This document shows positions 19,288-61,436 of a stretch of DNA of 64,000 nucleotides, piece after piece. Position 1 is the first letter of the stretch, and each line of letters begins with the position of its first letter. This stretch comes from Bradyrhizobium sp. S69 (GTDB lineage: Bacteria > Pseudomonadota > Alphaproteobacteria > Rhizobiales > Xanthobacteraceae): NCBI RefSeq assembly GCF_009766005.1, contig NZ_LMUK01000006.1:62001-126000 (forward strand), written 5' to 3'. Position numbers and translations under genes: made by a program. The notes below the pieces were generated by a model. That model had not been told where the DNA came from. It saw nothing but the letters and a program-made list of their open reading frames with translations, and did not search any database.

Positions 19288-19306
19288 GCGGGGCGGCGCA
19301 GGTTCA

Positions 19307-19403
19307 TAACGTTTTCGAGCGAAGTGGGCACCGGTTCGCATGAAGAAAACGCGTCAAAACAAAAGACTGGAGCCCTGTTCCGATTCAATCGGAACAGGGC
19401 TCT
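19307..19403. repeat. Family F dispersed repeat, copy 2, with hairpin
   Basis: GTTTTCGAGC, CCGGTTCGC, GCGTCAA and then a 14-bp-plus hairpin (19370-19385 with 19387-19402) occur in the same order as at 8297-8407. The hairpin lies about 80 bases after tadC and may act as a 3' end signal between the convergent tadC and tadD, although no long T run follows. Confidence 0.7.
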
Positions 19404-19506
19404 CGGACCGCTATCGGCCAGCGCAAGGTTAGAGCACCGACGGCCGCGATCACCGGATGACGCGGCTCAGCGCAGGGCGATGATGGCTTCTGGCACTTGG
19501 AAGCGG

Positions 19507-22755: not shown

Positions 22756-22777
22756 CTGAACGCCTTCCGCTCAAGTT

Positions 22778-22888
22778 CGTCATGCCCGGGCAGAAGCGCG
22801 TCTTCGCGCTAGATGTCCCGGGCATCCACGTCTTTACGCTGCTGCAGTCAGGAAGACGTGGATGGCCGGGTCAAGCCCGGCCATGACG
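22778..22888. repeat. Family B inverted-repeat element, copy 1
   Basis: Outer ends CGTCATGCCCGGG and CCCGGCCATGACG, inner arms CATCCACGTCTT and AAGACGTGGATG. It fills the gap between the convergent NlpC/P60 and yejF genes. Copies 2 and 3 are at 44401 and 45696. Confidence 0.85.
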
Positions 22889-22903
22889 AAAACGAATTGG
22901 GGT

Positions 22904-33297: not shown

Positions 33298-33320
33298 GGT
33301 TTTCACGCGACCTATCCGTT

Positions 33321-33440
33321 CGTCGTCCCGGCGAAGGCCGGGACCCACAATCCCTGGCGTGCGTTGCTAAGCAAGGCCTCGGCCACATCGTGCAAACGGG
33401 AATCCGCGCCGTATGGGTCCCGGCCTTCGCCGGGACGACG
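33321..33440. repeat. Family A inverted-repeat element, copy 1
   Basis: The arms 33321-33347 and 33414-33440 are perfectly complementary over 27 bases. The left arm begins CGTCGTCCCGGCGAAGGCC. The loop of 66 bases includes TGGCGTGCGTT and CCGCGCCGTA, blocks also present in copy 2 at 47029. It fills the gap between convergent pheA and the oxidoreductase gene. Confidence 0.9.
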
Positions 33441-33464
33441 ATAGTTTGTTGACGCCTTCGTTGT

Positions 33465-41002: not shown

Positions 41003-41018
41003 AATCAGACTTATCGTT

Positions 41019-41106
41019 CGTCATTGCGAGGAGCACTTGCGACGAAGCAATCCAGCTCTCGCTTGTGATGCTGGATTGCTTCGTCGCTCCGCTCCTCGCA
41101 ATGACG
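41019..41106. repeat. Family E inverted-repeat element
   Basis: CGTCATTGCGAGGAGC at the left pairs with GCTCCTCGCAATGACG at the right; inner arms GCGACGAAGCAATCCAG and CTGGATTGCTTCGTCGC also pair. It lies 17 bases after the small secreted protein gene. Confidence 0.88.
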
Positions 41107-41115
41107 GACCCAAAA

Positions 41116-41154
41116 GCAAGACGTGGATCACCGGGGTAAGCCCGGTGATGACGG
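41116..41154. repeat. Family B element, half copy
   Basis: CAAGACGTGGATCACCGG and CCCGGTGATGACGG match the right half of family B. It directly follows the family E element, so the two form a composite in the gap before the convergent acetyltransferase. Confidence 0.7.
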
Positions 41155-41210
41155 TGACTTCGTTGCACCAATCTCATTGCTAGAGCATCGAGCCCCCGCC
41201 GCTCACCTGA

Positions 41211-41795
41211 TCATCGGCACATGGCTGCGGCGGTCCGTGGGACGGCGCCGTCGAGGCGCGGGTCGTTGTCGATTTCGACCTGGCGCCGGAACGGACGAAA
41301 GCCCGCGCGTTGATAGAAGGCCAGCGCCGCCGGATGATCGAGCGTGCAGGTGTGCAGCCAGACGCGCGTGACCTGCGGCGACCACGCGAGCTCCAGCGTG
41401 CGGTTCATCATCCAGCTGCCGGCGCCGCTACCGATCAGTTTTGCCGTCACACCGAAGGAAACGATTTCGCATTGACCTGGAACGCGAAAATCGAGCTCAA
41501 CCAGGCCTTCGTCGTGGCCATCTTGCGCCAGCGCATATACCCCGACCAGGGGCGATTGAATGATCGCCAGCAGTCCGGCATCCGGCATTCCCGCACGCGA
41601 CAGCCAGAGCCACTTCTCACCGACGCGGCGATAGAGATCGCGAAACCAGTCGAGGCCTGGCGTCTCGACCTTGCGCAAGGTCCGGGGGCCCGCACGCTCC
41701 CGAACAGGGTCTGCGCGCTCGGTCATCTCCAGGTGCGTGATGACGGTGACGATCTTGCCGGCGGGAATGTCGAAAGTGCCGTCGGTTAAGGTCAT
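41211..41795 (-). CDS. GNAT family N-acetyltransferase
   Basis: This 194-residue protein has the GNAT fold: an N-terminal strand-helix region with '[20 protein letters not shown]', a beta core '[20 protein letters not shown]', the acetyl-CoA binding loop '[20 protein letters not shown]' (a variant of Q/RxxGxG/A) and the terminal motif '[20 protein letters not shown]'. The substrate is unknown. Its start overlaps the glpK stop by four bases (ATGA), so it is translated with glpK; a role in acetylating a small molecule or a protein is equally possible. Confidence 0.88.
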
Positions 41796-43300
41796 CTACC
41801 CTCCCCCTCATCGCTCGCCAGCACGCCCTTCACAGCCCGCGCCCAGCCGGCCAGCTTTCGCTCGCGCGTGGCCTGGCTCATGTTGGGCTTGAAGCGATGC
41901 TCCAGTCGCCAGTTGTCGGCGAATTTTGACGGCTCGGGATAGACGCCGGCGGCGAGACCCGCGAGGTAGGCGGCGCCGAGGGCCGTGGTTTCCTGGATCA
42001 TCGGACGATCGACCGGGGCGTCGAGCAGGTCGGCGAGGCGCTGCATGGTCCAGTCCGACGCGGCCATGCCGCCGTCGACCCGCAGCACGATGTTGGCGGC
42101 CTTGGCGCCGGGCCAGTCGGCGCGCATCGCGGCCCATAGATCAAAGGTCTGGTAGCAGACGCTTTCGAGCGCGGCATGCGCGAACTCTGCCGGTCCGGTG
42201 TTGCGGGTCAGCCCGAACAGCGCGCCGCGCACGCGGGGATTCCAGTAGGGCGCGCCGAGGCCGACAAAGGCCGGCACCAGATACACGCTTTGGGTGGAAT
42301 CGGACTGGTCGGCGAGCGGGCCGGTTTCGGAAGCGTGCTTGATGATGCCGAGGCCGTCGCGCAGCCATTGCACCGACGAGCCCGCGACGAAGATCGAGCC
42401 TTCGAGGGCGTAGGTGCGCTGTCCGTTCAACTGGTAGGCAATCGTGGTCAAGAGCTTGTTCTTGGAGGCCACCGGCGTGGTGCCGGTGTTGAGCAAAGCA
42501 AAGCAGCCGGTGCCGTAGGTCGACTTGATCATGCCGGGTGAAAAACAGGCCTGCCCGATGGTCGCGGCCTGCTGGTCGCCGGCGATGCCGGAGATCGCGA
42601 TCGCGCCGCCGAACAACTCCGGTACGCTCTCGCCGAAATGGTGCGAGGAATCCTTGACCTCCGGCAGCATCGAGCGCGGCACCCGCAGGATCTTCAACAG
42701 CTCGTCATCCCATTGGCCAGTGTGGATGTTGAACAGCAGCGTGCGCGAGGCGTTGGTGGCGTCGGTGGCGTGCACCTTGCCGCCGGAGAGCCGCCACAAC
42801 AGATAGCAATCGACGGTGCCGAACATCAGTTCGCCGCGCTCGGCCCGCGCCCGCGCGCCGGGGACGTGATCGAGGATCCAGGCGACCTTGGTGCCGGAGA
42901 AATACGGATCGATGATCAGGCCGGTTTTGGCCGAGATCGCCGGCTCGTGGCCTTCGGCTTTCAGCTTGGCGCAGATGTCCGCGGTGCGGCGGTCCTGCCA
43001 GACGATGGCGCGATGCACGGCCCGGCCGGTGGCGCGGTCCCAGACCACAGTGGTTTCGCGCTGGTTGGTGATGCCGATCGCGGCGATGTCTTTCGCGGTG
43101 ACGCCGGCCTTCTTCAGCGCCTCGCGGCAGACCGCGACCGTCGAGGTCCAGATGTCCTCCGGCTCATGCTCGACCCAGCCCGAGGCCGGAAAATGCTGCG
43201 GGAATTCCTGTTGCGCGGTGGCCGCGATCGAAATGTCGCTGCGAAACACGATGGCGCGCGAGGACGTGGTGCCCTGATCGATGGCCAGCACAAAGGACAT
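41792..43300 (-). CDS. glpK: Glycerol kinase
   Basis: This 502-residue FGGY-family kinase phosphorylates glycerol to glycerol-3-phosphate. The N-terminal phosphate-binding motif is '[16 protein letters not shown]'; '[20 protein letters not shown]' and '[20 protein letters not shown]' are typical, and the C-terminal '[20 protein letters not shown]' matches the FGGY signature region. Length is standard. Neither a facilitator (glpF) nor a dehydrogenase (glpD) is adjacent; the downstream partner is the GNAT gene. Confidence 0.96.
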
Positions 43301-43411: not shown

Positions 43412-43578
43412 CTCCCCTCCCCCTTGCGGGGAGGGGTCGGGGGTGGGGTCAACGGGCAAGGCCTACTTGAGCGCAGCGCGACTCAAAAGATACATTTGGA
43501 TTCGAGTCGGTACGAAGTTTCGATTCTCCGTGCGTGGAGACCCCCACCCCCGACCCCTCCCCGCAAGGGGGAGGGGAG
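43412..43578. repeat. Family D inverted-repeat element, copy 2
   Basis: The arms 43412-43448 and 43542-43578 are perfectly complementary over 37 bases; the left begins CTCCCCTCCCCCTTGCGGGG. The internal part contains TTGAGCGCAGCGCGACTC and its partial complement. It fills the gap between the SDR stop and the glpK start. Confidence 0.92.
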
Positions 43579-43581
43579 AAA

Positions 43582-44355
43582 TCACACCGACGCGGTCGTG
43601 ACGCCGCCGTCGACGACGATGGTCTGGCCGGTCATGAAGCTCGAGGCGTCCGAAGACAGGTAGGCGACCGCGCCGGCGATTTCGTCGGGTTCGCCGATCC
43701 GGCGCAGCGGTGTGGTGGCGCAGCGGCGTTTCAATCGCTCTTCGTCTTCCCACAGCGCACGGGCGAAATCGGTCTTGACCAGGCCGGGTGCCACGCAATT
43801 GACGCGCACGCCCTTGGGGCCCCATTCGCCGGCGAGGCTGCGGCACAGCGAGAAATCCGCGGCCTTGGAAATCCCGTAGGCGCCGATCACGGTCGAGCCG
43901 CGCAAGCCGCCGATCGAGGAGACGATCACCACCGAGCCGGTGCCGCGTTCCGCCATTTGCGGGATCGCCTGCGCGCACAGCCAGATGTTGCTCTTGACGT
44001 TACTGCCCATGATCTTGTCGAAGGCCTCATCGGTGATGTCGAGCAGCGGGCCGTAATAGGGATTGACCGCGGCGTTGCAGACCAGGATGTCGACCTTGCC
44101 GTAATGTTTGGTCGCGCCCGCGATCAGCGCCTGCACGTCGGCCTGCCGCGAGATGTTGCAGGGGATCACATGGGCGTCGCCGCCGGATTTCCTGATGCCG
44201 TCGGCGACGACCTCGCAGGCATCGGCCTTGCGGCTGGAGATCACCACCTTGGCGCCGAGTTTTGCCAGCAACTCCGCCGAAGAACGGCCGATGCCGCGGC
44301 TCGAGCCGGTGATGACCGCGACTTTTCCAGTGAGATCGAACGGGGTGTTTTTCAC
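43582..44355 (-). CDS. Short-chain dehydrogenase/reductase, last gene of pim cluster
   Basis: This 257-residue classical SDR has the cofactor loop 'AVITGSSRGIGRSSAELLAK', NAAVNPYYG, a Ser in 'VIVSSIGGLRGS' and the catalytic Tyr/Lys in 'YGISKAADF'. It probably acts on a hydroxyacyl or keto substrate. I chose GTG 44355 because GGAGC lies about 8-10 bases upstream; the frame stays open to 44427 only because it runs into a family B repeat. It follows pimD after 163 bases in the same direction, in the position of pimE, but I cannot equate it with PimE. Confidence 0.88.
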   Translation of the reverse strand: MKNTPFDLTGKVAVITGSSRGIGRSSAELLAKLGAKVVISSRKADACEVVADGIRKSGGDAHVIPCNISRQADVQALIAGATKHYGKVDILVCNAAVNPYYGPLLDITDEAFDKIMGSNVKSNIWLCAQAIPQMAERGTGSVVIVSSIGGLRGSTVIGAYGISKAADFSLCRSLAGEWGPKGVRVNCVAPGLVKTDFARALWEDEERLKRRCATTPLRRIGEPDEIAGAVAYLSSDASSFMTGQTIVVDGGVTTASV

Positions 44356-44400
44356 GACGGGTGCTCCGTTTTTTGTTTTGATCGTCCGTTGTTTTTCTCT

Positions 44401-44484
44401 CGTCATGCCCGGCCTTGTGCCGGGCATCCACGTCTTTCTTTGGCGCCAAAGACGTGGATGGCCGGGACGAGCCCGGCCATGACG
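44401..44484. repeat. Family B inverted-repeat element, copy 2
   Basis: CGTCATGCCCGGCC...CATCCACGTCTTTC at the left and AAAGACGTGGATGGCCGGG...ATGACG at the right. It lies in the pimD/SDR gap. Confidence 0.9.
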
Positions 44485-44518
44485 GTTATGGTGATTCGGC
44501 GCCGTGCGTCACCGTTGG

Positions 44519-45661
44519 CTACACCAGCCCGCCGGCGTCGGTGACGCGACGCAGGTGATAATCGGTATCGCCAAACGTGTTCTCGATCATGGTCAGCCGC
44601 TTGAAGTAGTGGCCGATCTTGGCTTCCTGGGTCATGCCGATGCCGCCATGGAGCTGGATCGACTGCTGACCAACGAATTTTGCCGATTTGCCGATCTGCA
44701 CCTTCGCCGCCGCGACCGCGGTGGCGCGCTCCCGCGCGTTGTCGAACTCGGACGCCATGGTCGCAAACATCGACATCGAGCGGGCCTGCTCGACCGCGAC
44801 GAACATGTCGGCGGCGCGATGCTGCAAGGTCTGGAAGCTGCCGATCGCCACGCCGAATTGCTTTCGCGTTTTGAGATATTCGACGGTGGATTTCAGCGAT
44901 TCATCCATCGCGCCGACCGCCTCGGCACAGAGCGCACAGCGGGCCTCATCGACCACGCGCTCGATCAGCGGCAGGCCGTTCTCGGGATCGCCGATCGCAG
45001 CGTCGCTGCCGACCTCGACACCGGTCAACGTAATGTCGGCGGCATGCAGGCCGTCCTGGGTGGGATAGCCTTTCCGGGCGATGCCCTTGGCGTTGCCGGG
45101 CACCAGGAACACGCCGATGCCGCTGGAATCGCGCTGGCCGCCTTTGGTGCGCGCGGTGACCACCAGCACGTCGGCGCTCTCGCCGTTGAGCACGACGAAT
45201 TTCTCGCCGTCGATCACCCAGCCGTCGCCCTTTCTCTTGGCGGTGGTCGAGACATCGCCGAGGTCGTAGCGCGAATTCTTTTCGAGCTGCGCAAAGGCAA
45301 AGGTCTTGCTGCCGTCGATGATGCCGGGAATGTAAGCTGCCTTCTGCTCGGCCGAGCCGCCATGGCGCAGGAAACCACCGCCAAGGATCACGGTTGCCAG
45401 ATACGGCTCCAGCACCAGCGCCTTGCCGAGCGCCTCCATCACGATCATGGTCTCGACGCCGCCGGCGCCGAAGCCGCCATCGTCCTCGGAGAACGGCAGG
45501 CCCAGCAGGCCCTGTTCGGCGAGCTTGCCCCAGAGCGTTTTGCTCCAGCCGCCCTTCTCCGCCATGTATTTCTTGCGTTGATCGAAATCGTAGGAATCGG
45601 TCAACAGCCCGTCGACGCTCTCCTTGAGAAGCCGCTGCTCCTCGGACAAATCAAAATCCAT
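44519..45661 (-). CDS. pimD: Pimeloyl-CoA dehydrogenase small subunit (acyl-CoA dehydrogenase)
   Basis: This 380-residue acyl-CoA dehydrogenase family protein starts 'MDFDLSEEQRLLKESVDGLL'. The middle domain reads 'FAFAQLEKNSRYDL' and the C-terminal helical domain 'QQSIQLHGGIGMTQEAKIGH'. The position of the usual catalytic Glu near the C-terminus is not recognisable, which suits a non-catalytic partner in a heterotetramer. It follows pimC. In R. palustris PimC and PimD are paired subunits of the dehydrogenase for pimeloyl-CoA and related dicarboxyl-CoAs. The assignment rests on gene order and family. Confidence 0.85.
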   Translation of the reverse strand: MDFDLSEEQRLLKESVDGLLTDSYDFDQRKKYMAEKGGWSKTLWGKLAEQGLLGLPFSEDDGGFGAGGVETMIVMEALGKALVLEPYLATVILGGGFLRHGGSAEQKAAYIPGIIDGSKTFAFAQLEKNSRYDLGDVSTTAKRKGDGWVIDGEKFVVLNGESADVLVVTARTKGGQRDSSGIGVFLVPGNAKGIARKGYPTQDGLHAADITLTGVEVGSDAAIGDPENGLPLIERVVDEARCALCAEAVGAMDESLKSTVEYLKTRKQFGVAIGSFQTLQHRAADMFVAVEQARSMSMFATMASEFDNARERATAVAAAKVQIGKSAKFVGQQSIQLHGGIGMTQEAKIGHYFKRLTMIENTFGDTDYHLRRVTDAGGLV

Positions 45662-45695
45662 GTTGTTACTTCTCCCCGACTATCTAAAATTTTCT

Positions 45696-45777
45696 CGTCA
45701 TGGCCGGGCTTGTCCCGGCCATCCACGTCTTGACGCAAAGCAAGACGTGGATGCCCGGCACAAGGCCGGGCATGACG
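45696..45777. repeat. Family B inverted-repeat element, copy 3 (reversed)
   Basis: CGTCATGGCCGGGC...CATCCACGTCTTG and CAAGACGTGGATGCCCGG...CATGACG. Relative to copy 2 the GCCGGG and CCCGGC arms are swapped, so it is inserted in the opposite direction. It lies in the pimC/pimD gap. Confidence 0.9.
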
Positions 45778-45806
45778 AACAGGTGCGTGGTCGCTTCAGG
45801 CGACAA

Positions 45807-46997
45807 TCACAACCCCAGCACCGCCTTGGTGATGATGTTGCGCTGGATCTCGTTGGAGCCGCCGTAGATCGAAACCTTGCGGTTGTTGAAATAGCTCGGC
45901 GCGATCTGCGCGGTCCAGTCCATCGATTCGTTCGAGCCCTCGTCGCCATGCTCGTCGAACGGGGCCGCGAACGGGCCGATCACTTCCATCAAAAGTTCGG
46001 TGGTGGCCTGCTGGATTTCCGAGCCCTTGATCTTGAGCACTGAAGAAGCCGGGTTGGGCTTGCCCTTGCCGTGCTTGCCTTCGTCGGCGACGACGCGCAA
46101 CTGGGTCAATTCGAGCGCCTTCAGCTCGATCTCGACCGCGGCGAGCTTTTCGCGGAAACCCTGGTCCTGCATCACCGGCTTGCCGCCGGATTCCACCTTG
46201 GACGCGAGGTCCTTGATGCGGCGGATCCGTTCCTTGGAGACGCCGACCCGGGCGATGCCGGTACGCTCATTGCCGAGCAGGAATTTGGCGTAATCCCAGC
46301 CCTTGTTTTCCTCGCCGATCAAATTCTCGACCGGCACCTCGACGTCGTCGAAGAACACTTCGTTGACCTCAACGCCGCCGTCGATGGTCTGGATCGGCCG
46401 CACCGTGACGCCCTTCGACTTCATGTCGAACACGATGAAGGAGATACCCATCTGCTTCTTCGCGCTAGTATCGGTGCGGCACAGGCAGAAGATCATGTCG
46501 GCGTATTGCGCCAGCGTGGTCCAGGTCTTCTGGCCGTTGATGATGTATTTGTCGCCCTTGCGCTCGGCCTTGGTTTTCAGCGAGGCCAGATCGGATCCCG
46601 AACCCGGCTCGGAGAAGCCCTGGCACCACCAGTCGTCGACACTGGCGATCCGCGGCAGGTACTGCTTTTTCTGGGTCTCGTTGCCGAAGGTGTAGATGAC
46701 AGGGCCGACCATGCTGACGCCAAAGGCGAGCGGTGCCGGCGCCGGATGCATCTGCAATTCCTCATTGAAGATGTAGTGCTGCACGGAGGTCCAGCCGGTG
46801 CCGCCATATTCCTTGGGCCAGTGCGAGACGCCCCAGCCCTTCTTGTTGAGGATGCGCCACCAGGTGACCATCTCGTCCTTGGAGAGATGACGCCCCTCCT
46901 GCAATTTCTGCCGCGTCGCCGGCGGCACGTTATCCCGAAAGAAGGTCCGCACCTCTTCGCGAAACGCCACTTCGTCCTTGCTGAAGCTGAGATCCAT
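45807..46997 (-). CDS. pimC: Pimeloyl-CoA dehydrogenase large subunit (acyl-CoA dehydrogenase)
   Basis: This 396-residue acyl-CoA dehydrogenase has 'MDLSFSKDEVAFREEVRTFF' at the N-terminus, the flavin/substrate segment 'QGFSEPGSGSDLASLKTKAE' and 'YIINGQKTWTTLAQYADMIF', and ends 'SIYGGSNEIQRNIITKAVLG'. The IYxGS-type C-terminal motif has Gly where medium-chain enzymes have the catalytic Glu, so the base must come from elsewhere. Gene order with pimB and pimD supports the large-subunit role in dicarboxyl-CoA oxidation. Confidence 0.87.
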   Translation of the reverse strand: MDLSFSKDEVAFREEVRTFFRDNVPPATRQKLQEGRHLSKDEMVTWWRILNKKGWGVSHWPKEYGGTGWTSVQHYIFNEELQMHPAPAPLAFGVSMVGPVIYTFGNETQKKQYLPRIASVDDWWCQGFSEPGSGSDLASLKTKAERKGDKYIINGQKTWTTLAQYADMIFCLCRTDTSAKKQMGISFIVFDMKSKGVTVRPIQTIDGGVEVNEVFFDDVEVPVENLIGEENKGWDYAKFLLGNERTGIARVGVSKERIRRIKDLASKVESGGKPVMQDQGFREKLAAVEIELKALELTQLRVVADEGKHGKGKPNPASSVLKIKGSEIQQATTELLMEVIGPFAAPFDEHGDEGSNESMDWTAQIAPSYFNNRKVSIYGGSNEIQRNIITKAVLGL

Positions 46998-47028
46998 CGG
47001 ATCCTCCTAGAGTGAATTAATTTTCTTT

Positions 47029-47151
47029 CGTCGTCCCGGCGAACGCCGGGACCCATAACCCCTGGCGTTCGCGGAAAGTAAAAGGCCTCAAACACATTGC
47101 CTAAACGCAGACTCCGCGCCGTATGGGTCCCGGCTCAAGGCCGGGACGACG
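47029..47151. repeat. Family A inverted-repeat element, copy 2
   Basis: The left arm begins CGTCGTCCCGGCGAACGCC (47029-47055) and the right arm ends CCGGGACGACG (47124-47151). Loop blocks CCCTGGCGTTCG and CCGCGCCGTA match copy 1. It lies in the pimB/pimC gap. Confidence 0.88.
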
Positions 47152-47188
47152 ATTGTTGATGCCCGGCCTTCGCCGGAATGACAGCGCT

Positions 47189-48376
47189 TTACTGCAACAC
47201 CTCGAACAAACCCGCCGCGCCCATGCCGCCGCCGACGCACATGGTGACGACCGCGTATTTCGCCTTGCGGCGGCGGCCTTCGATCAGCGCGTGACCGGTC
47301 AGCCGCGCGCCCGACATGCCGTAGGGGTGGCCGACCGAAATGGCGCCGCCATCGACGTTGATCTTCTCCGGATCGATGCCGAGCTTGTCGCGGCAATACA
47401 GCACCTGCACCGCGAAGGCTTCGTTCAGCTCCCACAGATCGATGTCGTCGATCTTCAGGCCATGACGCTTGAGCAGGCGCGGCACCGCGAACACCGGGCC
47501 GATGCCCATTTCGTCGGGCTCGCAGCCGGCGGAAACAAAACCGCGGAAGATGCCGAGCGGCTGCAAGCCGCGCTTCGAGGCTTCCTTGTCGCTCATGATC
47601 ACCGAGGCGCTGGCGCCGTCCGACAACTGGCTGGCATTGCCCGCGGTAATGGTGAAGCCGTCGCCACGCACCGGCTTCAGGCCGGCGAGGCCTTCGGCGG
47701 TGGTCTCGGGACGCGGGCCCTCGTCCTTGGACAGCGTGATGTCCTTGAAGGAAACTTCGCCGGTGGCCTTGTCGGTGACGCCCATCTTGGTGGTGATCGG
47801 GGCCAGTTCGTCGTTGAACTTGCCGCCCTGTTGGGCTGCCGCGGTGCGGCGCTGGCTCTCCAGCGAATATTCGTCCTGGCGCTCGCGCGAAATGCCGTAG
47901 CGCTTGGACACGATTTCGGCGGTGTCGATCATCGGCATGTAGACATCGCCCTTGATCAGCAGGAGCGCCGGATCCTGGGTGTGGAACTTGTTGGCGTGAT
48001 CGTTCTGCACCAGGCTGATCGATTCGCCGCCGCCGCCGACCGCGATCTCGACGCCGTCGAAGATCACCGAACGCGCCGCGAGCGCGATCGCCTGCAAGCC
48101 CGAGGCGCATTGCCGGTCGATGGTGGTGCCGCCGACCGTGACGGGAAGCCCTGCGCGCAACAACGCCTTGCGGGCGATGTTGCCGCCGGTCGATCCCTGC
48201 TGGAGGGCCGCGCCCATCACCACGTCTTCGACTTCCTTGGGATCGACCTTGGCGCGGGCGACCGCCTCGCCGATGGCATGGCCCAACAACGTGGCACCTT
48301 CGGTGGCGTTGAGCGCGCCGCGATAGGCCTTGCCGATCGGGGTGCGGGCGGTGGAAACGATAACGGCGTCGGTCAT
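47189..48376 (-). CDS. pimB: Acetyl-CoA acyltransferase (beta-ketothiolase)
   Basis: This 395-residue thiolase cleaves 3-ketoacyl-CoA with CoA. The nucleophile is Cys90 in '[16 protein letters not shown]'; the His loop is '[18 protein letters not shown]' and the second Cys is in '[16 protein letters not shown]'. Length is standard. The start overlaps the pimA stop by four bases (ATGA). It would catalyse the last step of dicarboxyl-CoA beta-oxidation. Confidence 0.92.
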
Positions 48377-50067
48377 AGGCGACCTCCTGTTGCGAGTTGT
48401 TGTTGGGGTTGGACGGATGGCGGTGTTGGTTTCTGCTGGCTGCGCAGTTCGTGGCGCGACAGCTTGCCGACCGGGGTGCGCGGCAATTCGTCGACGAAAT
48501 CGAGCGCCGCCGGAATTTCGTGCTTGCCGAGCTTGCCGGTGAGGAAAGCCTTGAGTTCTTCCAGCGCGAACGGTTGTGCGCCGGCGCGCAATTTGACGAA
48601 GGCCTTGGCCGCCTCACCGCGGTAATCGTCGGGAATGCCGATCACGATCACCTCTTGCACCGCCGGGTGGGTGTAGATCGCCTGCTCAATCATCTGCGGA
48701 TAAACATTGAAGCCGCCGGAGATGATCATGTCCTTCTTGCGATCGACCAGGAAGAAATAGCCGTCGGCATCCATGTAGCCGATATCGCCGGTGAGGAAGC
48801 GGTCGCCGACAAAGGCCTCCGCGGTTTCCTTCGCCCGGTTCCAGTAGCCCTTGGTCACGTTCGGACCACGAATCCGGATTTCACCGACCTCGCCCACCGG
48901 CATGATTTGCTTCGGGTCGTCCAGCGAGACCACGTCGAGTTCGATGCCGGGCAGCATCAGCCCGATCGAGCCCGGTTTGTCCGGGCCTTCCGCCGGATGA
49001 CCGGTGCCGGGCGAGCAGGTCTCGGTCATGCCCCAGCCGCTCTTGAGCTTCATCTTGGTCTTGCGCTCGAAGATGCGTGCGACTTCCACCGGCAGCGGCG
49101 CGCCGCCCGATCCGGCAAGCGCCAGCGAGGAAAGGTCGCGGCTTTCGAGATCCGGCAGGGCCGCGATCGCGATCCACATCGTGGGAACGCCGGGGAAGGC
49201 GGTCGCGCGCTTGACCTCGATGTCGCGCATCACCGCCTCGACCTCGAAGCGCTGGTGCAGCGAGATCAGGTCGCCGGCCTCGAGACTCCGCAGCAGGATC
49301 ACGGTCAGCGCATAGATATGAAACAGCGGCAGCACGCAGATCACGCGCTCGATCGTGTTGCGCTCGGCGCGGCTCTTCTTGCCCCAGACGTCGTAGATCG
49401 ACACCGCCGCCGTCAGATTGCCATGGCTGAGCATCGCGCCTTTGGGCAGTCCGGTGGTGCCGCCGGTATATTGCAGCAGCGCGACGTCATCGACATCGAT
49501 CGCCGGCCATCGCTCCGGCTTGGCCGCGCCCGCGGCGAATTGGCTGAAGGTCACGATCGCGGGATTATCCGGCAGCGCCGTTTGTGGCGTGCCGACCTTG
49601 CCCCAATGGTCGTCCTCGCACACGATCAGCCGGTCGAGCAGGCCCTTGTCGAGGAACTTTAAGGCCGTCGGCAGCAGCCCCGAGAGATTGGAAGTGACCA
49701 GCACGCGCGCGCCGGAATCCGACAGCTTGTGCGACAGCGCGATCTCGCCGTCGAGCGGCGACAGATGCACCACGCGCGCACCGGCCTTCAGCGCACCGAA
49801 GAAATTGACCGGATGATCCGGCGTGTTGCCGAGAAACAGCGCGACCGATTGGTCCCGGCCATAGCCGGCGCGCAGCAAGGCCGCCGCCGCGGTCTCGGCC
49901 AAAGCGGCCAGTTCGCCGTAGCTGATCGCCCGGTCGCGAAATTCAATCGCCGGCCGCGCGGCGTAGGACGCTGCCGCGGTCGACAGCAGATCCGGCAGCG
50001 TCCCGCGCGCGATCGCATCGTCCCAACGGACGCCTTCCGGATAGAACTGTTCGCCGGGATGGGTCAT
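48373..50067 (-). CDS. pimA: Acyl-CoA ligase (pimeloyl-CoA / dicarboxylic acid type)
   Basis: This 564-residue ANL-superfamily ligase activates a carboxylic acid with ATP and CoA. The AMP-binding P-loop is '[20 protein letters not shown]', the second motif '[20 protein letters not shown]', and the hinge to the C-terminal domain is '[20 protein letters not shown]'. The catalytic Lys region 'GKLSRHELR' is at the end. Gene order next to pimF and pimB supports PimA, which in R. palustris prefers C6-C14 di- and monocarboxylic acids as I recall. Confidence 0.9.
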
Positions 50068-50107
50068 GGATGATCTTCACACAGTGAGGCGAGCGCGGCG
50101 TTGTGTA

Positions 50108-50207
50108 CTCCCCTCCCCCTTGCGGGGAGGGGTCGGGGGTGGGGGTCTCCAAGCACTGAGCTTGTGGTACCCCCCACCCCGACCCTCCCCCGCAAGGGGG
50201 GAGGGAG
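50108..50207. repeat. Family D inverted-repeat element, copy 3
   Basis: The left arm 50108-50146 begins CTCCCCTCCCCCTTGCGGGG and the right arm 50169-50207 is its near-perfect complement, with a short loop. It lies in the pimF/pimA gap. Confidence 0.92.
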
Positions 50208-50239: not shown

Positions 50240-52333
<2,094 letters not shown>

Positions 52334-61309: not shown

Positions 61310-61318
61310 CACCGGGGA

Positions 61319-61427
61319 CGTCATCCTGAGGAGCGCGTCTTCGCGCGTCTCGAAGGATGGTGTTCAGCTTTGTGCTTGCGACCATCCTTCGAGGCGCGCA
61401 AGAAAGTGCGCGCACCTCAGGATGACG
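61319..61427. repeat. Family C inverted-repeat element, copy 3
   Basis: CGTCATCCTGAGGAGCGCG...CTCGAAGGATGGTGTTCAG at the left and CCATCCTTCGAGGCGCGC...CACCTCAGGATGACG at the right. It exactly fills the gap between the convergent glycerate kinase and marR genes. Confidence 0.9.
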
Positions 61428-61436
61428 GCTTACCGC

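Follow-up and report, generated by a model that had tools for sequence, protein, structure and literature searches.

Occupied junctions and changing hairpin families in the pim operon of Bradyrhizobium and its relatives

The pim operon, a degradation operon for pimelate, in a 64-kb stretch of the genome of the soil bacterium Bradyrhizobium sp. S69 (the window) has a long hairpin in each of its non-overlapping gene junctions. Among relatives of this strain two of these junctions, pimC/pimD and pimD/SDR (SDR, short-chain dehydrogenase), are occupied by such an element in every gap compared around the best PimC matches, while the identity of the element is not conserved. The reading favoured here, to which a probability of about 0.45 is given, is that these are exchangeable intercistronic hairpins of the repetitive extragenic palindromic (REP) type, which may be kept at the two junctions for a structural role as a barrier to decay or a processing point. 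The pim gene names are those of an earlier note on this DNA, and the gene identities used here come from Pfam domains.

Occupancy of the junctions in relatives

The junctions were compared in 80 loci around PimC orthologues of 89-94% identity, which are the best PimC matches and not a random sample, with gene ends placed by tblastn. A gap was taken as occupied if its 8-mer containment to an element of another locus was at least 0.2, and the outcome also holds with elements of the same junction excluded. With the window included, 77/77 pimC/pimD gaps and 60/60 pimD/SDR gaps are occupied, compared with 2/137 coding stretches and 1/69 stretches before pimF that served as controls. None of the gaps at these two junctions (0/137) is shorter than 60 nt. 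Such short gaps, counted as empty, are found in 6/69 cases at pimF/pimA, 8/48 at pimB/pimC and 16/32 at pimA/pimC, and over the 149 gaps of these three junctions there have been at least 21 changes in occupancy, gains and losses being counted together. That occupancy changes at three junctions and never at pimC/pimD and pimD/SDR is the strongest point for selection; at equal rates the chance of this would be near 1e-6, by a hand calculation that takes no account of errors in the tree or of the limit of 60 nt.

Inverted repeats were also scored directly. The gene caller and the repeat detector, the latter similar to einverted, are both home-made, gene starts are inferred, and score cut-offs of at least 28, 30, 36 and 45 were used. 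In gaps of 100-300 nt that are free of N a repeat scoring at least 30 is present in 95% of cases at pimF/pimA (n=61), 97% at pimB/pimC (n=38), 93% at pimA/pimC with no pimB between (n=15), 93% at pimC/pimD (n=71), 92% at pimD/SDR (n=59) and 85% at SDR/glpK (n=27). Elsewhere in the same loci this score is reached by 66% of 119 other same-direction gaps, 80% of 54 convergent gaps and 11% of 88 divergent gaps, and when each pim gap is shuffled once by 0-20%, depending on the junction. With the cut-off raised to 45 and the same range of gap lengths, pim gaps in the relatives' loci stand at 193/274 (70%) against 50/118 for other same-direction gaps; the lower pim occupancy arises because mismatched elements are missed.

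The earlier note had proposed that absence of the elements from the same junctions in close relatives would tell against its idea of processing or stability points. The elements are present there, often from other families, and hairpins at pimC/pimD are also found in nine genomes from seven other genera with a PimC identity of 78-91% (L201-L209).

Turnover of families and spacers

Family labels are 8-mer clusters, which replaced labels based on regular expressions that had confused family A with family C, and part of the set of spacers was read by eye. Family counts cover gaps of up to 600 nt, which sets aside one pimD/SDR gap (1669 nt) and 14 of the 49 SDR/glpK gaps; pimD/glpK gaps are not among the junctions covered. 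At pimC/pimD the families are C (24), Z (19), G (16), D17 (15) and T (3), and at pimD/SDR they are N (22), C (13), Z (10), G (10), R (3) and D17 (2). On the locus tree, a quick tree of 6,114 columns that is blurred by recombination, there are at least 38 family changes at pimC/pimD and at least 29 at pimD/SDR, not far from the means for shuffled labels (43.4 and 33.5), with the states '?' and 'x' at SDR/glpK (3/35) set aside.

Spacers were called unalignable below an identity of 0.58, the maximum reached by 300 pairs of shuffled 150-mers being 0.54. Among sister pairs the spacer is unalignable in 14/23 at pimC/pimD, 9/15 at pimF/pimA and 8/15 at pimD/SDR, after 1 of 24 pairs at the first junction and nine at each of the other two had been dropped where the spacers or genes were not both present. 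In unalignable pairs the adjoining coding sequence is just a little more divergent than in the rest. Within 100 nt on each side of pimC/pimD, 91/2,800 sites differ in unalignable pairs versus 45/1,800 in alignable ones (3.3 vs 2.5%), the corresponding values being 6.6 vs 5.9% at pimF/pimA and 6.0 vs 5.2% at pimD/SDR, and in the sets of three examined around sister pairs the coding flanks show no trace of a tract from a donor. There is no sign of long recombination tracts at pimC/pimD, where family is not linked to the adjoining codons; the other junctions have a slight linkage of family with the opening 60 nt of the gene that follows (for instance 0.20 vs 0.28 at pimF/pimA, 0.15 vs 0.20 at pimD/SDR). 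The long-branched L025 was left out of this analysis and of that of the region before pimF. Two loci that are not sisters, L049 and L040, have spacers that are 98% identical, with third-position divergence of 0.15 and 0.21 in the two genes. The spacer flanks, and likewise the stretch ahead of the start codon, tend to follow family membership.

Two elements share a gap in 4/77 cases at pimC/pimD and 8/60 at pimD/SDR (threshold 28), decayed elements lie beside intact ones, and the spacer of L054, assigned to family Z, opens in the manner of family C, so that elements appear to have succeeded one another. The length of the pimC/pimD spacer, among the spacers listed, ranges from 82 to 311 nt.

The 150 nt before pimF contain no repeat scoring at least 36 in 68/68 loci. 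Median identity there is 95-97% in pairs with less than 0.2 divergence, 91% at 0.2-0.25 and about 0.5 beyond 0.25; this region changes too, over longer times. Intergenic switching, or horizontal regulatory transfer, has been reported by the authors of Piggy for upstream regions within a species (PMC5890482). To judge from the part of that paper covered, the pim spacers are alike in that non-homologous alleles stand between orthologous, little-changed genes and are incongruent with the gene tree. They are unlike it in that inner operon spacers are concerned, the comparison is between species, and every allele at two junctions has an element; moreover, unlike the upstream switching in the sections available, the region between pimF and its divergent neighbour is little switched (30/346 close pairs unalignable). 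A search of titles and abstract openings within one collection of open-access papers found none on these junctions or on replacement of hairpin families at a single junction.

The hairpins of the window

The earlier note had described a long hairpin in all five non-overlapping junctions, a different one each time. An inverted-repeat tool finds repeats at all five places (Table 1) and there is, in agreement with the note, none where pimA and pimB overlap; the hairpins are not all different, as there are only three families in the order D, A, B, B, D. The pimB/pimC spacer has, by reading, a third and decayed unit at about 47159-47184, between the hairpin and the pimB stop codon. At junctions with more than one case the elements sit a median of 6-25 nt after the stop codon and 33-95 nt ahead of the next start. 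Folding energies predict that the hairpins are stable as RNA, with a minimum free energy of -114.1 kcal/mol (z -3.9) for the 172-nt pimF/pimA gap and -140.5 (z -3.1) for the 281-nt SDR/glpK gap, which does not belong to the pim genes in the strict sense. In family D the G-rich arm, GGGGAGGGGTCGGGGGTGGGG (43428-43448 and 50124-50145), is laid out like a G-quadruplex motif with four G-runs and short loops, so that this family could adopt more than one fold.

By the home-made detector, which is independent of the tool behind Table 1, thirteen repeats in the window score at least 45, compared with 0-3 in each of 15 Markov-shuffled windows. Each of the 13 falls between called genes, five of them in the pim junctions. 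The window and 20 segments of 20 kb, 464 kb of the S69 genome in all, provide a background, in which same-direction gaps of 100-300 nt contain a repeat in 7/70 cases at a score of at least 45 and 23/70 at a score of at least 30, whilst the pim junctions have 5/5; the chance of 5/5 against 7/70 is about 5e-5 by a post hoc hand calculation. The repeats sit behind genes: at the higher cut-off they are in 16/26 convergent gaps and 2/22 divergent gaps, and at a score of at least 36 in 24/26 convergent versus 3/22 divergent gaps of 100-300 nt. Among 71 same-direction runs pim stands out with five occupied gaps (of at least 60 nt) in succession, no other run exceeding two, and adding a family criterion raises the background to 17/70 and leaves the streak outcome unchanged. 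Within the window itself five of the six convergent gaps have repeats (19288-19506, 22756-22903, 33298-33464, 41003-41210 and 61310-61436).

The genes of the operon all have the expected Pfam domains and all lie on the minus strand. In 32 relatives (within L006-L085) pimA directly adjoins pimC with no pimB between them, and the thiolase gene pimB is therefore an optional member of the operon.

Table 1. Hairpins and genes of the pim operon, with positions in the window
Feature	Position	Strand	Description
pimF/pimA spacer hairpin, family D	50108..50207	-	39-nt arms, 85% complementary; GC-rich double palindrome
pimB/pimC spacer hairpin, family A	47028..47152	-	two perfect 13-nt blocks per arm; two CGTC-1-like REP units facing outward
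pimC/pimD spacer hairpin, family B	45695..45778	-	38-nt arms, 89%; outward-facing CGTC-3 REP dimer
pimD/SDR spacer hairpin, family B, two units in opposite order	44401..44484	-	37-nt arms, 86%
SDR/glpK spacer hairpin, family D	43412..43578	-	37-nt arms, 100% complementary, 93 nt apart
pimF, enoyl-CoA hydratase / 3-hydroxyacyl-CoA dehydrogenase fusion	50240..52333	-	identified by domains
pimA, AMP-binding acyl-CoA ligase	48373..50067	-	identified by domains
pimB, thiolase	47189..48376	-	identified by domains; 4-nt overlap with pimA, no hairpin
pimC, acyl-CoA dehydrogenase	45807..46997	-	identified by domains
pimD, acyl-CoA dehydrogenase	44519..45661	-	identified by domains
SDR, short-chain dehydrogenase	43582..44355	-	identified by domains
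glpK-like FGGY carbohydrate kinase	41792..43300	-	identified by domains

Identity of the families

The families are high-copy REP-type palindromes in the case of B and likely so in that of A; family D is repetitive in S69. Both halves of each family B hairpin consist, by reading, of a CGTC tag, a 9-bp stem beginning AT, a 5-nt loop and a CCA tail, and on these letters family B is identified as the known CGTC-3 REP in the form of an outward-facing dimer. It has 80 matches in the S69 genome, with both strands of one place listed apart and 40 of 136 candidates scored. Family A has the CGTC tag, 8-bp stems that begin GT, loops of 4 and 5 nt and the CCA tail, and is likely a CGTC-1-like REP-type palindrome. 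The CGTC-1 REP is defined by a CGTC tag, an 8-bp stem that almost invariably starts with AT, a 4-nt loop and a CCA tail, and CGTC-1 and CGTC-3 REPs have been described in Bradyrhizobium and R. palustris as mostly dimeric, intergenic elements that lie mostly behind genes (Di Nocera et al. 2013, PMC3733652). The elements here share with those described in the sections of PMC3733652 covered the tag, the 8-9 bp stem, the 4-5 nt loop, the tail, the dimers and the intergenic place, mostly behind genes; family A departs in its GT from the published AT, and in one of its loops, of 5 nt, from the 4 nt of CGTC-1. The same sections count families per genome and make no comparison of a single junction across species, which is what is compared here.

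Family D has an exact 21-base core with 21 matches in the S69 genome, some of which are the two arms of one element. Neither CCCTCCCC nor GGGGAGGG from this family occurs in the text, as distinct from the figures, of PMC3733652. The motif GGGGWSAS, common to some only of the terminal inverted repeats (TIRs) of TIRYT type, is by reading absent from both strands of the family D arm at 43412. A link of the elements to REP-associated tyrosine transposases (RAYTs) was looked for around the two Y1_Tnp genes of the S69 genome, the sole transposase family searched, and none was found; about 1.5 kb on each side shows just one unrelated 29-nt repeat. No Rfam family matches the window at gathering scores.

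Hahn et al. 2016 (PMC5082802) found Br-REP1 and Br-REP2, with cDNA reads, in the 3' untranslated regions of B. japonicum. Some family Z spacers (pimF/pimA of L049 and L068) contain both the Br-REP1 and the Br-REP2 consensus; the part of PMC5082802 covered does not discuss operon junctions or describe families A, B and D. A small palindrome, GCGCAATTGCGC, is present at the tips of REP units belonging to several families and in the pim spacers of 21 relatives (e.g. pimC/pimD of L052, pimB/pimC of L047 and pimF/pimA of L046). The loci, 1.47 Mb in all, contain it at 29 places, 23 of these being spacers of the operon plus its glpK end, and it looks like a tiny palindrome nested within REP loops. 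TGCGCAATTGCGCA is found at six places in the S69 genome and at none in the window.

Comparison with other junctions

The pim operon is only partly special. A neighbouring operon gap, with a median length of 66 nt, has a repeat in 1/58 loci and 81/323 close pairs are unalignable. Four further junctions were followed in genomes of the genus, keeping loci with both genes in place (18/30, 18/30, 14/30 and 13/23); these comparators are few and three were picked because the S69 genome has an element there. At AT/DadA and SBP/IlvD a repeat scoring at least 45 is found in the S69 genome only (1/14 and 1/13), and one scoring at least 30 in 5/14 and 4/13. MDH/SucC has kept one alignable structure, with 0/42 pairs unalignable. 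Separately from any REP, GGTATATGGTAT, which is part of a near-palindrome, precedes sucC in the six relatives listed (L090:4301-4510 and mdh/sucC gaps among L108-L137) and is possibly a regulator site.

The earlier note had offered as an alternative that gaps may simply be the only tolerated landing sites. In its plain form this fits poorly with the 7/70 other gaps occupied in the S69 sample and with the 1/58, 1/14 and 1/13 above; a refined form, in which gaps are refilled without selection, remains a rival and is weighed below.

Possible selection for a hairpin and its alternatives

The inner pim spacers of the Bradyrhizobium-Rhodopseudomonas group are occupied by REP-type elements. If selection is at work, the hairpins of pimC/pimD and pimD/SDR would be kept as such, with the family and the surrounding spacer free to vary. 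Exchange may proceed in two ways, by replacement of a whole spacer without its coding flanks, as in intergenic switching, or by insertion of a new element next to an old one that then decays. A stable structure just after a stop codon could block 3'-5' decay or mark a site of processing, so segments of the message would have separate lifetimes, and any strong hairpin would suffice. That points of this kind set different protein levels, as the earlier note had suggested, is possible. A more specific version, that the slot and not the sequence is the conserved trait, with the inner pim junctions selected for a long hairpin of any family and spacers exchanged whole between species, is put forward more tentatively, as possible rather than probable. 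Newbury 1987 and Higgins 1982 are said to have described the intercistronic REPs of E. coli operons, malEFG among them, as stabilisers of mRNA. The pim elements are like these in being hairpins between operon genes close after a stop codon, and unlike them in that several unrelated families interchange at one junction and that they are known here from sequence alone. The part of PMC12306157 available has both Newbury 1987 and Higgins 1982 among its references.

A number of results weigh against selection for a hairpin. The glpK/next-gene junction, outside pim, is filled in 20/22 cases at a score of at least 30 (e.g. L048:15751-15947) and 77/109 close pairs are unalignable, so the pattern of filling and switching is not confined to pim; AFG1/MDH is also filled in 15/18, although there the spacers are alignable (1/46 pairs unalignable). 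The finding that the pim junctions are unusually well filled also has a point against it: a second genome, G021 (400 kb), has a higher background of 25/61 by the same wider rule that gives 17/70 in S69, and its longest streak is three in 63 runs, with just two in its own pim region because its pimB/pimC gap, of 64 nt, contains too little to be scored. A few gaps classed as occupied have only decayed or half elements, in which no repeat reaches a score of 28 (3/77 at pimC/pimD, in L019, L074 and L075; 2/60 at pimD/SDR, in L050 and L037), and two of the six short pimF/pimA gaps keep part of an element (L025 and L050). Six distant relatives with a PimC identity of 65-75% (L210, L213, L214, L216, L218 and L219) have pimC/pimD gaps of 0-59 nt and no hairpin, from which it follows that the pathway does not need one; of the others, L215 and L217 do have hairpins, the 143-nt gap of L211 scores below 30, and in L212 pimC has no pimD next to it. 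The stems themselves are equivocal. In 90 independent same-family pairs the per-site difference is 0.062 in stems, 0.164 in loops and 0.182 outside, with a mean divergence of 0.221 at four-fold sites, and this slower change of the stems fits selection but also conversion between copies, or in part the definition of families and stems by the same pairing. Mismatches have no G.U bias on the sense strand (236 G.T vs 242 A.C in 247 elements, 71 vs 67 in close pairs), so nothing points to selection on pairing in RNA over DNA. Stem pairs have changed on both sides in 48 cases, far more than independence gives, which uneven rates or misalignment may explain; 20 of the 48 are still paired, which is not clearly above the share of a third or slightly over that chance alone would re-pair, and compensatory change was dropped as support. 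With that support gone and the glpK/next-gene junction showing the same pattern, confidence in the favoured reading and in its more specific version was lowered, and that in the neutral ratchet was raised slightly.

A close rival is a neutral ratchet, in which exact deletion is rare once an element parts two genes, the spacer is otherwise functionless, active REP families keep inserting and old copies decay, and the gap would stay filled by whichever family is active; this too is judged quite possible, if somewhat less than probable. The families are high-copy, the two-element gaps, the decayed elements beside intact ones and the L054 spacer point to succession, the glpK/next-gene junction suggests a general process, and the short hairpin-free pimC/pimD gaps of the distant relatives fit equally. 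What speaks for selection of a hairpin over such a ratchet is that spacers shrink as well as grow, as the range of pimC/pimD lengths shows, so deletions do occur, and that short gaps exist elsewhere, three of them at pimA/pimC (L013, L020 and L022) with CCGGAAT as their first letters, which resembles how a unit of family Z ends, and none at the two junctions that are always filled. The contrast in occupancy changes would be hard to obtain at equal rates, and the stems differ less than the loops.

It is also conceivable, if rather improbable, that the hairpins act as DNA, either as cruciform or supercoiling sinks or as binding sites for gyrase or nucleoid proteins behind genes. The lack of strand asymmetry in the mismatches would suit this, as would the gyrase targeting of E. 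coli REPs that is cited in the portion of PMC3733652 covered, yet the families share no sequence beyond the frequent CGTC tag, which family D by reading lacks, and the repeats are rare in divergent gaps, where they would probably be equally useful. That the elements are intrinsic terminators or attenuators, ending most transcripts after each gene, is very improbable despite their long GC-rich stems after stop codons. A scan of loops of 3-8 only gave 16 terminator-like sites, and no element on the transcribed strand falls on any of them; there is no run of T (U in the RNA) in the bases read after each stem, and the 3 promoter-like sites listed include none on the minus strand that could restart the later genes, with the proviso that promoters of this genus may differ.

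Significance

Whether REPs inside operons are useful or are tolerated parasites is an old question of the field. The pim operon provides, at one junction, dozens of natural alleles of unrelated sequence and alike form between genes that have changed little, with the more conserved region upstream of pimF as a control for the junction alleles. For these bacteria it may be that a hairpin is wanted at the junctions, whichever family supplies it.

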